NCBI GenBank assembly: GCA_012838865.1
Contig: DUOK01000292.1
Coordinates: forward strand, 1 to 32,112
DNA length: 32,112 bases
From: Bacteroidales bacterium
GTDB taxonomy: Bacteria; Bacteroidota; Bacteroidia; Bacteroidales; Marinilabiliaceae
Direction: 5' to 3'
The notes beneath the pieces were generated by a model. It saw nothing but the letters and a program-made list of their open reading frames with translations. It was not told where the DNA came from and did no database searches. Position 1 is the stretch's first letter. Every line of letters begins with the position of its first letter. The translations under genes and the position numbers were made by a program. This document shows, one piece after another, positions 243-17,462 of this stretch.

Positions 243-314
243 TGATCCCGACGGGACTCGAACCCATATCGCTGGAACCGGAATCCAGTATTCTATCCAT
301 TGAACTACGGGACC
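243..314 (-). tRNA. tRNA-Arg (anticodon CCG)
   Basis: Read on the minus strand, the sequence folds into a full 72-nt cloverleaf. The acceptor stem is GGTCCCG with CGGGATC, with a discriminator A. The anticodon stem is CTGGA/TCCAG around the loop TTCCGGT, giving anticodon CCG (reads Arg codon CGG). The T arm is ATGGG/CCCGT with loop TTCGAGT. No CCA is encoded: the bases after the discriminator do not read CCA. It is transcribed away from leuS and towards the terminator at 207-238. Confidence 0.95.
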
Positions 315-15324: not shown

Positions 15325-15603
15325 TTAAGCAATGTACAAAATGTCACTCTGCGAAATCAACAGATAGTCTTCCCCGTCAATGTTCAACTCGGTACCGGAA
15401 TACTTTCCGTACAACACCACATCTCCGGCCTTCACCTCCATAGCTTCGTCCTTTTTAGCGGCACCAGTCAGAACCACCTCACCTTTCAGAGGCTTCTCCT
15501 TGGCAGAATCAGGAATAATGATACCGCTGGAGGTCTTCTCTTCCGCTGCCTCAGGTTTAACCAAAACCTTACCGGCAAGAATCTTTCCTTTTAAAGTTGA
15601 CAT
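15325..15603 (-). CDS. groES: 10 kDa co-chaperonin GroES
   Basis: The 92-residue protein caps the GroEL ring. The sequence shows the N-terminal strand GKILAGKVLVKPE, the mobile loop with EEKTSSGIIIPDSAKEKP (the GroEL-binding hydrophobic tripeptide III is intact), and the C-terminal EDYLLISQSDILYI. Length is typical. It is the first gene of the groES-groL pair. The 520 bp upstream contain no gene but hold a candidate promoter and the duplicated four-hairpin repeat. Confidence 0.98.
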   Translation of the reverse strand: MSTLKGKILAGKVLVKPEAAEEKTSSGIIIPDSAKEKPLKGEVVLTGAAKKDEAMEVKAGDVVLYGKYSGTELNIDGEDYLLISQSDILYIA

Positions 15604-15692: not shown

Positions 15693-15767
15693 CCTGCCAC
15701 CCCACCTGCCATTTTTACAGCCCACACGCCCCCTGCCAGCCAGCACCGGCCTATCTCTAACAAAAAT

Positions 15768-15872
15768 GGCGACAACGTCGCCATGCGGGTTTCAACCCGC
15801 TTTCCAGAGCCAGCGCGAAGCGCTGACCCATCCCTCTCAATAATAACCCAGGACTTCAGTCCTGGGACTATA
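15768..15872. repeat. Four-hairpin repeat unit, copy 1
   Basis: Four perfect inverted repeats in a row. A: GGCGAC/GTCGCC at 15768-15782 (loop AAC). B: GCGGGT/ACCCGC at 15785-15800 (loop TTCA). C: CAGCGC/GCGCTG at 15811-15825 (loop GAA). D: CCCAGGAC/GTCCTGGG at 15847-15866 (loop TTCA). The unit recurs 151 bp downstream with about three substitutions and no indels. Short GC-rich palindromes of this kind resemble REP/BIME elements moved by RAYT transposases, but no transposase gene is in the window, so the class is an inference. Confidence 0.85.
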
Positions 15873-15918
15873 ACACACTATGCCCCAGACCCCAGACAAA
15901 CCTCAACCCAAAAAAAAA

Positions 15919-16023
15919 GGCGACAAAGTCGCCATGCGGGTTTCAACCCGCTTTCCAGAGCCAGCGCGAAGCGCTGACCTATCCCTCCCAATAATAACCC
16001 AGGACTTCAGTCCTGGGACTATA
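15919..16023. repeat. Four-hairpin repeat unit, copy 2
   Basis: The same order as copy 1. A at 15919-15933 (loop AAA instead of AAC), B at 15936-15951, C at 15962-15976, D at 15998-16017. All stems are intact; the differences from copy 1 fall in a loop and in the linker between C and D. A 46-bp A/C-rich spacer (15873-15918) separates the copies and is not repeated. Confidence 0.85.
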
Positions 16024-16123: not shown

Positions 16124-16492
16124 TTACTCAGCCACCTCTTCCGAGTCGGAAGCTGCAGGTGCAGCCTCTTCCTCCACATCGGCACCAATGGAAAAACCGG
16201 GCATGGCAGACTCTGTGGGCTGCATGTTTTGCATCTGGCTGTCGATAACCGACTGGCGACCCAACTCGTGCTTAGGAATAACCATTACAGCCACAAAAGA
16301 AAGTACCAACAAGGCTCCGGCAAGCGTCCATGTTGCCTTTTCAAGAAAGTCGGTGGTTTTCCGAACACCCATCACCTGATTGGATGAGGCAAAATTAGAG
16401 GCCAAACCCCCTCCTTTTGAATTCTGTACCAAAACAATCAATATCAAAAGAATACTGGCCAAGATTACCAGAACGGAAACAAATTCGTACAT
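16124..16492 (-). CDS. secG: Preprotein translocase subunit SecG
   Basis: The 122-residue inner-membrane subunit of the SecYEG channel has two membrane helices: FVSVLVILASILLILIVLVQ near the N-terminus and WTLAGALLVLSFVAVMVI after it. Between them is the SecG cytoplasmic signature NSKGGGLASNF. The acidic Glu/Ala-rich tail (EEEAAPAASDSEEVAE) is a common variable end in Bacteroidota. The open frame extends to 16549, but the ATG at 16492 gives the family N-terminus MYEFVSVL and sits 4 bp after the upstream gene's stop codon. It is the last gene of a four-gene minus-strand run with the sigma-54 activator, lptE and a TPR-tail protein. Confidence 0.93.
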   Translation of the reverse strand: MYEFVSVLVILASILLILIVLVQNSKGGGLASNFASSNQVMGVRKTTDFLEKATWTLAGALLVLSFVAVMVIPKHELGRQSVIDSQMQNMQPTESAMPGFSIGADVEEEAAPAASDSEEVAE

Positions 16493-16496
16493 ATCT

Positions 16497-17462
16497 TTAC
16501 TTATTACTGTTATTAATATCTTCTTCCAACGCTTTGATTCGACGCGCAAAGTAAACGCTTTTTTCGGGATATTTCAAACGCAGACGATCGAATATATCCA
16601 TCGCCTTTGAAAAATGCCCCTGCTTAATGTAAATACCCGCAAGCGTCTCGGTCATCAAATCGTCACGCTCCTGCAAACTGGCTGCAGAAATATCCACATT
16701 TTCGGTTGTTGTTGAGGGCGCGGAAGGCAAGCGGCGCTTTTTGCGGCCTCCTTCCAAAAAATCATCAATCAAAGAACGCTTCTTTTGCACCGGCTCCGGC
16801 AGAGGAGCGGCAGCTGTCGCCTCCCGCTGCAAAACCGGCTGCTGTTTAAGCACCTTCAACCAGTCCGAAAACGAGCGCGCCTCATCGGCTGTCGCTTTCC
16901 CTTCCTCCTCAAGCCGATACGCACTAACCGTCCCTTCATCAAAGCCCAGAAAATCGGCACTCGGTAAAACTATGTTGTCCGGATTGTTTTCTGCACCGGC
17001 CCCGAAAGTCAGCACCCCTCCCGAAGGCAGTTCAAATTCATCGGAGGCTCCCAGGTAATCGTCAACAGCAGGCTGAGCATCCTGCTCATTCTCCCCGGGG
17101 ACTGCTTTTACAAAGTCGGCCGATTCCTGTTCCAAAGGCTGGGACTTCACCGGAGACGCTGTTGACAGCTCAGGAGCTGCCGCTGTTTGTGACCCGCTTG
17201 GCTGGTCCACTTGCTCTGCTTCCACCCGGGCAGGGGCATGAATCAAAGCAAAGAGTTGCGCCCGGTCGGCAATATGCGCGGCAGCCAGCTTCAACTCATT
17301 GTTGTAACGAATGTGACCCAGCAAATGCAAATTTTTAACCCACAGCATCCTTCCTGCTTGAAAAAAGGGATACTCTTCCAACAGGAGTTTTAAACCATCC
17401 AGACTTTGTTCGTCCAGACCGTTTGGATTTTGTAGTGCTTGAGCAATTTGCTGTTTGTGCAT
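16497..17462 (-). CDS. Conserved protein with C-terminal TPR-like motif, function unknown
   Basis: The 321-residue soluble protein has no signal peptide. Residues 1-80 are helical (LDGLKLLLEEYPFFQAGRMLWVKNLH). Residues 80-240 are low-complexity and probably disordered, rich in Ala, Pro, Glu and Ser. Residues 240-321 carry LIDDFLEGG, a basic KKRR patch, and then one TPR-like hairpin: TLAGIYIKQGHFSKAMDIFDRLRLKYPEKSVYFARRI. This tail, ending in LKYPEKSxYFA, recurs in uncharacterised Bacteroidota proteins encoded near lptE and secG (my recall). It starts 28 bp after lptE and ends 4 bp before secG, suggesting a shared transcript and possibly an envelope-related scaffold role. I do not recognise an enzyme here. 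Confidence 0.82.
   Translation of the reverse strand: MHKQQIAQALQNPNGLDEQSLDGLKLLLEEYPFFQAGRMLWVKNLHLLGHIRYNNELKLAAAHIADRAQLFALIHAPARVEAEQVDQPSGSQTAAAPELSTASPVKSQPLEQESADFVKAVPGENEQDAQPAVDDYLGASDEFELPSGGVLTFGAGAENNPDNIVLPSADFLGFDEGTVSAYRLEEEGKATADEARSFSDWLKVLKQQPVLQREATAAAPLPEPVQKKRSLIDDFLEGGRKKRRLPSAPSTTTENVDISAASLQERDDLMTETLAGIYIKQGHFSKAMDIFDRLRLKYPEKSVYFARRIKALEEDINNSNK

Follow-up and report, generated by a model that had tools for sequence, protein, structure and literature searches.

A dispersed multi-hairpin repeat with a probable link to a single-copy Y1 transposase gene in Geofilum

The closest described systems to the repeat discussed here are the REP and REPIN elements with their RAYT transposase genes ("REPtrons"), and the TnpA-Y1 transposases related to them. 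REPs have been divided into GTAG- and CGTC-tagged families, according to the accessible text of PMC3733652. The accessible portions of the classification by Quentin et al. 2018 (PMC6006769) list TnpA-Y1 subclass 1.2 with "no" under REP and without typical IS ends, IS200 transposases being its close relatives. A third point of comparison is Acido-Lenti-1 (RF01687), which the relevant part of PMC2864571 lists among probable RNAs whose function is not known, and whose matches downstream of protease genes have been taken as possible regulators (PMC13298647, in the section concerned).

The locus described here shares features with each of these systems. We consider it fairly likely that it belongs to a REP-like, non-autonomous multi-hairpin element which is dispersed in the genome and tied to a single-copy Y1/HUH tnpA gene, by whose product it would be mobilised.

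Two tandem copies between secG and groES

The window is the whole stretch of DNA analysed, 32,112 nucleotides in length. The ORF listing gives two minus-strand ORFs in the region, which we take from their sequences to be a secG-like gene upstream (16124..16549) and groES downstream (15325..15603). Between them a repeat search of the window found two plus-strand copies, at 15759..15872 and 15910..16023, each of 114 nt and 96% identical to one another. They are spaced 151 bp start to start, with 37 bp between them, and each holds four hairpins (A-D) with perfect stems, as the original prediction stated. Its further claim that the differences between the copies spare every stem also holds, the changes being confined to a loop, the linkers, and the A-run ahead of hairpin A. 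The 105-nt units, when folded as single-stranded DNA, have z scores of -8.3 and -7.9, and none of 200 shuffles was as good. Elsewhere in the window Rfam identifies an ordinary tRNA gene (243-314, minus strand).

Copy 1 begins with hairpin A (GGCGAC/GTCGCC; 15768..15782), which by repeat search and folding extends to 15766-15784. It is followed by hairpin B at 15785..15800 (GCGGGTT-TC-AACCCGC, the allele found elsewhere being GCGGACT-TC-AGTCCGC) and by hairpin C (CAGCGC/GCGCTG; 15811..15825), the stem sequence of which differs among copies. The linker (15826..15846) ends at its 3′ side in CAATAATAA, conserved ahead of D in the alignment, and hairpin D, CCCAGGACTTCAGTCCTGGG (15847..15866), forms the outer end of the element. 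In copy 2 the corresponding hairpins are A at 15919..15933, here taken on the minus strand, B at 15936..15951, C at 15962..15976, and D at 15998..16017, the last recovered by the D pattern scan as well as by the repeat search.

We take the sister genome (G021) to be Geofilum rhodophaeum (HF401) and the window genome to be another Geofilum species. The two give a 95% alignment over the whole 2.3 kb region, with both copies at the same site and a D-to-D spacing of 155 bp in the sister. The duplication is therefore not recent, one of the options originally considered. Within a genome, 5 and 3 positions separate the two copies, as against 11-13 when copies of different genomes are compared. The pair thus evolves in concert, and we take it for an ancient tandem duplication in which conversion has maintained the likeness. 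The groES-secG alignment gap is 253-302 bp in the four relatives compared at this site (G022, G023, G024, and G001, all without D copies) as against 481-584 bp in the window genome; the array is thus an addition.

A dispersed family of hairpin units

The exact D hairpin pattern was found 52 times in the window genome and 58 times in the sister genome, and in none of the other 69 among the 71 family genomes scanned, three of which belong to the same genus. The reversed pattern, used as a control, is absent from all 71. BLAST of the unit against its own genome returned 63 pieces at E <= 10 and 47 at E <= 0.004, window copies included. The palindromes, for which the original prediction had allowed that they might occur nowhere else in the genome, recur widely in it. 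No D cluster (0/38) lies inside a long ORF in the window genome, and a crude ORF caller flagged 3/36 in the sister.

Aligned copies share one architecture: a variable hairpin, a core hairpin, a second variable hairpin, a linker, and D. The four stems had been thought mutually unrelated; genome-wide, hairpins B and D instead draw on the same two interchangeable cores, GGACTTCAGTCC or GGGTTTCAACCC, and D swaps between these as a whole (27/52 and 22/52). The linker of aligned copies ends in AATCATAA, directly followed by D, and AT[AG][AG] is conserved immediately ahead of D in 46 of 52 copies. B-C-D recurs in fixed order as a single unit, which speaks against the suggestion of a composite of several REP families.

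A perfect hairpin at the C position is kept in 47/52 units of the window genome and 52/58 of G021, and when C stems are swapped between copies the inner five bases match in 22% of cases for the window genome and 20% for G021. These values were obtained by counting hairpins copy by copy and exchanging arms among copies, for the window genome on the 52 units in the fetched loci; this procedure replaced pair counts from a structural alignment in which MAFFT had set the C stems of two module types out of register. Window-genome copies carry at least nine truly different C stems (13 strings were obtained, several of them length variants of one stem), and eight units lack one or both inner hairpins. 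On this count it is the hairpins that are conserved, and not their letters.

Similarity among copies ceases just past D. At several loci (L036, L037, L039, L040, and L042) two arms stand head to head and a D closes off either end; the C stem is of the window type in one arm and of another type (GTGCCCC), here called the second, in its partner. The L042 dimer (247 nt) folds with a z score of -11.6 under RNA parameters, its arms pairing with each other. Short tandem repeats are found beyond D in 15/30 and 18/37 window-type arms, in 1/17 and 2/15 second-type arms, and in 107 of 2000 random window 80-mers, which served as the baseline.

Some further observations concern the surroundings of the units. 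GC-rich short tandem repeats often begin right past D in window-type arms, with lengths that differ between the two species (for instance L032:4165-4200, L040:922-960, L207, and L213). Whole elements are amplified in tandem, with periods of ~247, 254, and 125 bp, at L123, L131, and L140 (G021:C14:34980-35474; C34:129.2-130.2 kb; C78:53.1-53.6 kb). Two neighboring units at L041:560-860 correspond to one fused hairpin in the sister (L125:8920-9080), as if deleted between shared GGACTTCAGTCC cores.

Most of the element loci compared are common to both species, and the differences between the species are mainly deletions between shared cores, losses of half a dimer, and changes in tail length. Clean insertion sites were sought in 14 locus pairs and by two targeted searches, and these revealed neither a target-site duplication nor a base-precise empty site. 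At L040 a dimer with its tail is absent from the sister genome (query 683-968 is missing, with 22 bp instead); the site in the sister differs in sequence, so that it is not base-precise, and the gap is shorter in G022 too. The L048 element is present in the sister in decayed form. Judged as MITEs, the dimers have inverted D ends, with no target duplication identified at L040, the sole presence/absence site and not a clean one. As that site is unclean and most loci are held by both species, we have no clean case of recent movement, and movement driven by TnpA is something we infer, given that no target duplication was seen and that L040 is not base-precise.

The tnpA gene and its hairpin arrays

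The Y1_Tnp profile has one match in the whole window genome, a single-copy IS200-like tnpA of 153 aa with the motifs DHVH, WQ, and YIKYQKQHH. The protein scores 62 bits against the NCBIfam IS200 model NF033573 (cut-off 55) and 19.5 bits against the RAYT model NF047646 (cut-off 80); by motif it would fall in TnpA-Y1 subclass 1.2. A phmmer protein search against solved structures gave 0 matches. Between the two Geofilum species tnpA has a dN of 0.036 and a dS of 0.45, and it is under purifying selection.

Module arrays lie on both sides of the gene. The upstream array ends ~270 bp from it, and in Geofilum the downstream (right) array starts beyond one oxidoreductase gene that lies after tnpA. 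A Pfam scan of 20 ORFs around tnpA found housekeeping or unknown genes and no mobile gene besides tnpA itself. The proposal that the unit is mobile and non-autonomous, or REP-like, and that an IS200-like Y1 gene should have these hairpins on either side is borne out insofar as the hairpins are genome-wide and the sole Y1 gene sits between arrays. That this gene would be of the RAYT type is not, in view of its score under the RAYT model and of the lack of a constant GT[AG]G guide.

A close ortholog of this tnpA is present in exactly two of the 71 family genomes (window genome, 100%; G021, 92%), the next best match being 40%; some relative of the gene is found in 42/71, and the best other match in a 296-genome sample of the phylum is 42%. 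The close tnpA and the D repeats thus co-occur in the same two genomes of 71, although within the genus this amounts to 2 genomes with and 3 without, the two being sisters.

Of the 58 D copies in G021 (56 listed), 12 fall within C6:68.0-104.0 kb and a further 12 within C14:29.3-40.7 kb, and among those listed the remainder of the two contigs has none. As C10, the contig that carries tnpA in the window genome, bridges the ends of C6 and C14 in alignment, 24/58 of the G021 D copies surround tnpA within ~50 kb. Grouped by hand, 14/38 clusters are near tnpA as against 0.76 expected (Poisson 1e-13). The region counted, which was picked once the data had been seen, takes in a set length of 40 kb to one side and all 42.5 kb of the contig to the other, and uniform placement is assumed. 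This hotspot could be a tolerant region.

We extended the comparison to 77 distant tnpA loci, comprising 48 from the family, the Geofilum pair being left out, and an independent set of 29 from other families. Hairpins were required to have a perfect stem >= 7, a GC content of at least half, and a loop of 2-6, and to lie <= 700 bp from the gene. The motif Y---Q--HH is present in 49/51 family tnpA rows. Hairpins on both sides accompany 23/48 family tnpA loci versus 1/262 control genes of the same genomes, and 8/29 versus 4/149 in the independent set. Left-right direct repeats on the same strand are found at 31/48 tnpA loci versus 6/262 controls (family) and at 16/29 versus 2/149 (independent). 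Hairpin density per intergenic kb is 3.04 versus 0.26 in controls for the family, and 1.80 versus 0.61 for the independent set. No hairpin at all was present within 700 bp on either side of 14/48 family and 13/29 independent tnpA loci. The distant tnpA genes at L067, L071, L070, L056, and L065 each have multi-hairpin direct repeats of their own in both flanks, the stems of which do not resemble the Geofilum ones.

Searched against their own genomes, the flank arrays of three distant tnpA genes matched twice in G051, seven times in G014, where two matches fell on a different contig, and six times in G016, all of these six adjoining tnpA. Eight contrast genomes per query, namely six others and the Geofilum pair, gave few and weak matches: the G051 query had 2 in G042, the G016 query 1 in G014, and the G014 query none. 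That the flank arrays are mainly two-sided and local in these three genomes speaks against a REP-like dispersal everywhere, and wide dispersal is so far special to Geofilum.

Matches to RF01687 at E <= 0.001 were obtained in 61/296 genomes of the phylum, 28 of these exceeding the cut-off. A tnpA (E <= 1e-12) is present in 43/61 of the positive genomes versus 85/235 of the others (Fisher 2e-6, in a test that ignores relatedness and genome size). When the best RF01687 locus was taken from each of 30 genomes, 7 of these loci had tnpA within ~1.5 kb, as compared with 0/57 control 3-kb stretches. In the opposite direction, an Rfam scan of 40/77 distant tnpA loci gave four weak RF01687 matches at three loci (three in L054 and L073, and one in L222), all below the gathering score; 60 kb of control sequence had 0. 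Subclass 1.2-like tnpA genes with an RF01687 match within ~1.5 kb are those at L270, L277, L281, L287, L288, L293, and L295, and at L277 hairpins occur every 66 bp beside tnpA.

It is possible, and we advance this only tentatively, that subclass 1.2 Y1 proteins form a system, mobile or domesticated, which extends through the phylum and has hairpin rows, two to four hairpins long and with lineage-specific stems, as its DNA substrates, the rows reaching >50 copies in Geofilum. The Acido-Lenti-1 "sRNA" would then be, in this phylum at least, one form of such a DNA substrate and not an RNA gene.

Origin of the element and its place among known systems

In the reading that we favor, the unit is one arm of the element. 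An arm runs from a variable hairpin (A) through a constant-core hairpin (B), a variable hairpin (C), and the conserved linker to the constant hairpin D, which is outermost; in several elements two such arms face one another head to head, each terminating in its D. TnpA would bind the hairpins in single-stranded DNA, cut at the D end, and move arms or dimers in trans, and the element has probably been spread or mobilised by TnpA as single-stranded DNA. This mode of action is inferred; observed are the dispersal, the pairing that persists as stems change, the joint occurrence with a single tnpA ortholog, the clustering about that gene, and comparable flanks, with hairpins or direct repeats on either side, at many distant subclass 1.2 genes. 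Intact copies may later have been homogenised, and shortened, via recombination between shared cores. The two tandem arms between secG and groES would be old survivors, in which hairpin A probably serves in addition to terminate secG transcripts.

The last point touches on an alternative, which we hold to be unlikely, in which the repeat is a structured RNA or an mRNA 3′-end element, the hairpins acting as terminators or exonuclease barriers in transcripts and TnpA being incidental. On the secG strand a T-rich tail comes after hairpin A in both copies, with nine T in copy 2 (15918-15910), and the A-runs by hairpin A are also found in the sister genome. Hairpin A thereby has the predicted form of an intrinsic terminator, a GC-rich hairpin and then a T-run on the transcript strand. 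Four terminator-like matches occur on the secG strand versus 0.7 expected by shuffling, which favors this alternative, as does the strong folding of the units and of the dimer. Clusters also lean toward convergent gene ends (12/23 and 16/32 of those classed versus 9/56 background pairs; Fisher 0.002 and 0.001), in a comparison that depends on a crude ORF caller, which wrongly called the window's own cluster convergent, and on a background that includes element-bearing loci. Against an RNA function stand the absence of a plus-strand T-run at hairpin D and the retention of B-C-D in most copies whatever the neighbor. The inverted dimers, the tandem amplification, and the concentration near tnpA suit a DNA element, and confinement to 2/71 genomes would be unusual if the hairpins had a general role as RNA. 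The mRNA 3′-end role first proposed for the secG run is possible as a side effect at this site, where hairpin A precedes T-runs.

Less probable again is that some other activity (another recombinase, slippage, or gene conversion) mobilises the arrays and that tnpA is a passenger in a hotspot. Recombination and slippage could explain why most loci are present in both species and differ by core-to-core indels or tandem tails, and D copies do amplify in tandem (247-bp spacing at G021:C14:34980-35474). Recombination does not, however, scatter one unit over dozens of loci (38 hand-grouped clusters), and the two-sided pattern is repeated at distant subclass 1.2 genes in unrelated neighborhoods. A purely local duplication of an old terminator region, to which the two near-identical tandem copies and their shared position in the sister genome might point, is rejected in view of the 47 BLAST pieces here and elsewhere, the 52 D copies, and the shorter groES-secG gap of the four D-less relatives (~250-300 bp versus 480-585).

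We return to the REP-like element tied to tnpA as the preferred reading. Counting against it are the unclean L040 site and the many loci common to both species, the sister relation of the two genomes that have both tnpA and repeats, the oxidoreductase gene that separates tnpA from its right-hand array, the mainly local arrays of the three distant genomes, and the distant tnpA loci with no hairpin. With the REP/REPIN and RAYT systems the element shares dispersed short intergenic palindromes, single and inverted-dimer forms, and a single-copy Y1 gene among the copies. It differs in its unit of four hairpins (~105 bp), in having AT[AG][AG] ahead of D (46/52) in place of a constant GT[AG]G guide, and in a transposase that lies off the RAYT model (19.5 bits, cut-off 80). 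GT[AG]G within 0-2 nt 5′ of the hairpin was found at D in 0/52 on either strand, at H1 in 0/47, and at H2 (C) in 14/47 on the minus strand only. A classical REP with RAYT is rejected on the missing guide at D and H1 and on the RAYT score, and hairpin D fits neither of the two tags given for REPs in the accessible text of PMC3733652. An IS200/IS605 insertion sequence (subclass 1.1) is likewise rejected, there being a single tnpA and multi-hairpin arrays here, and not near-identical copies with one subterminal hairpin per end.

Over its full length the minus strand of hairpin D can be aligned to the first hairpin of the Acido-Lenti-1 model, including the CUGA loop and GGCUA 3′ flank. Unlike true members, the element scores 24.5 bits in both window copies and at best 29.1 bits in the genome, below the gathering score of 37, and membership in this family is rejected. 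The present case hints that this Rfam family, for which no function is known, may represent a DNA repeat associated with transposases; if so, matches such as those discussed in the relevant section of PMC13298647 would be read differently.

The TnpA-Y1 proteins of subclass 2.6 and class 3, for which the accessible text of PMC6006769 mentions "atypical secondary structures", likewise come with non-canonical hairpins, both close to the gene and at other genomic sites. Their proteins differ in having the Y-motifs YIH[QN]NP and YV..EQ, and neither a multi-hairpin order nor dimers are described in that text. In the open-access literature we found no report of subclass 1.2 repeats or of a link between Acido-Lenti-1 and a transposase, PMC6006769 being the only paper found on subclass 1.2. 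With that subclass, as presented in the accessible part of PMC6006769, the Geofilum protein agrees in its 153 aa, its motifs DHVH, WQ, and Y---Q--HH, and its single copy, and differs in the hairpin arrays that flank its gene. Going by the same text, subclass 1.2 has been without a known substrate since 2018, and the element described here, from a species pair in which tnpA and the repeats coincide, offers a concrete and testable candidate.
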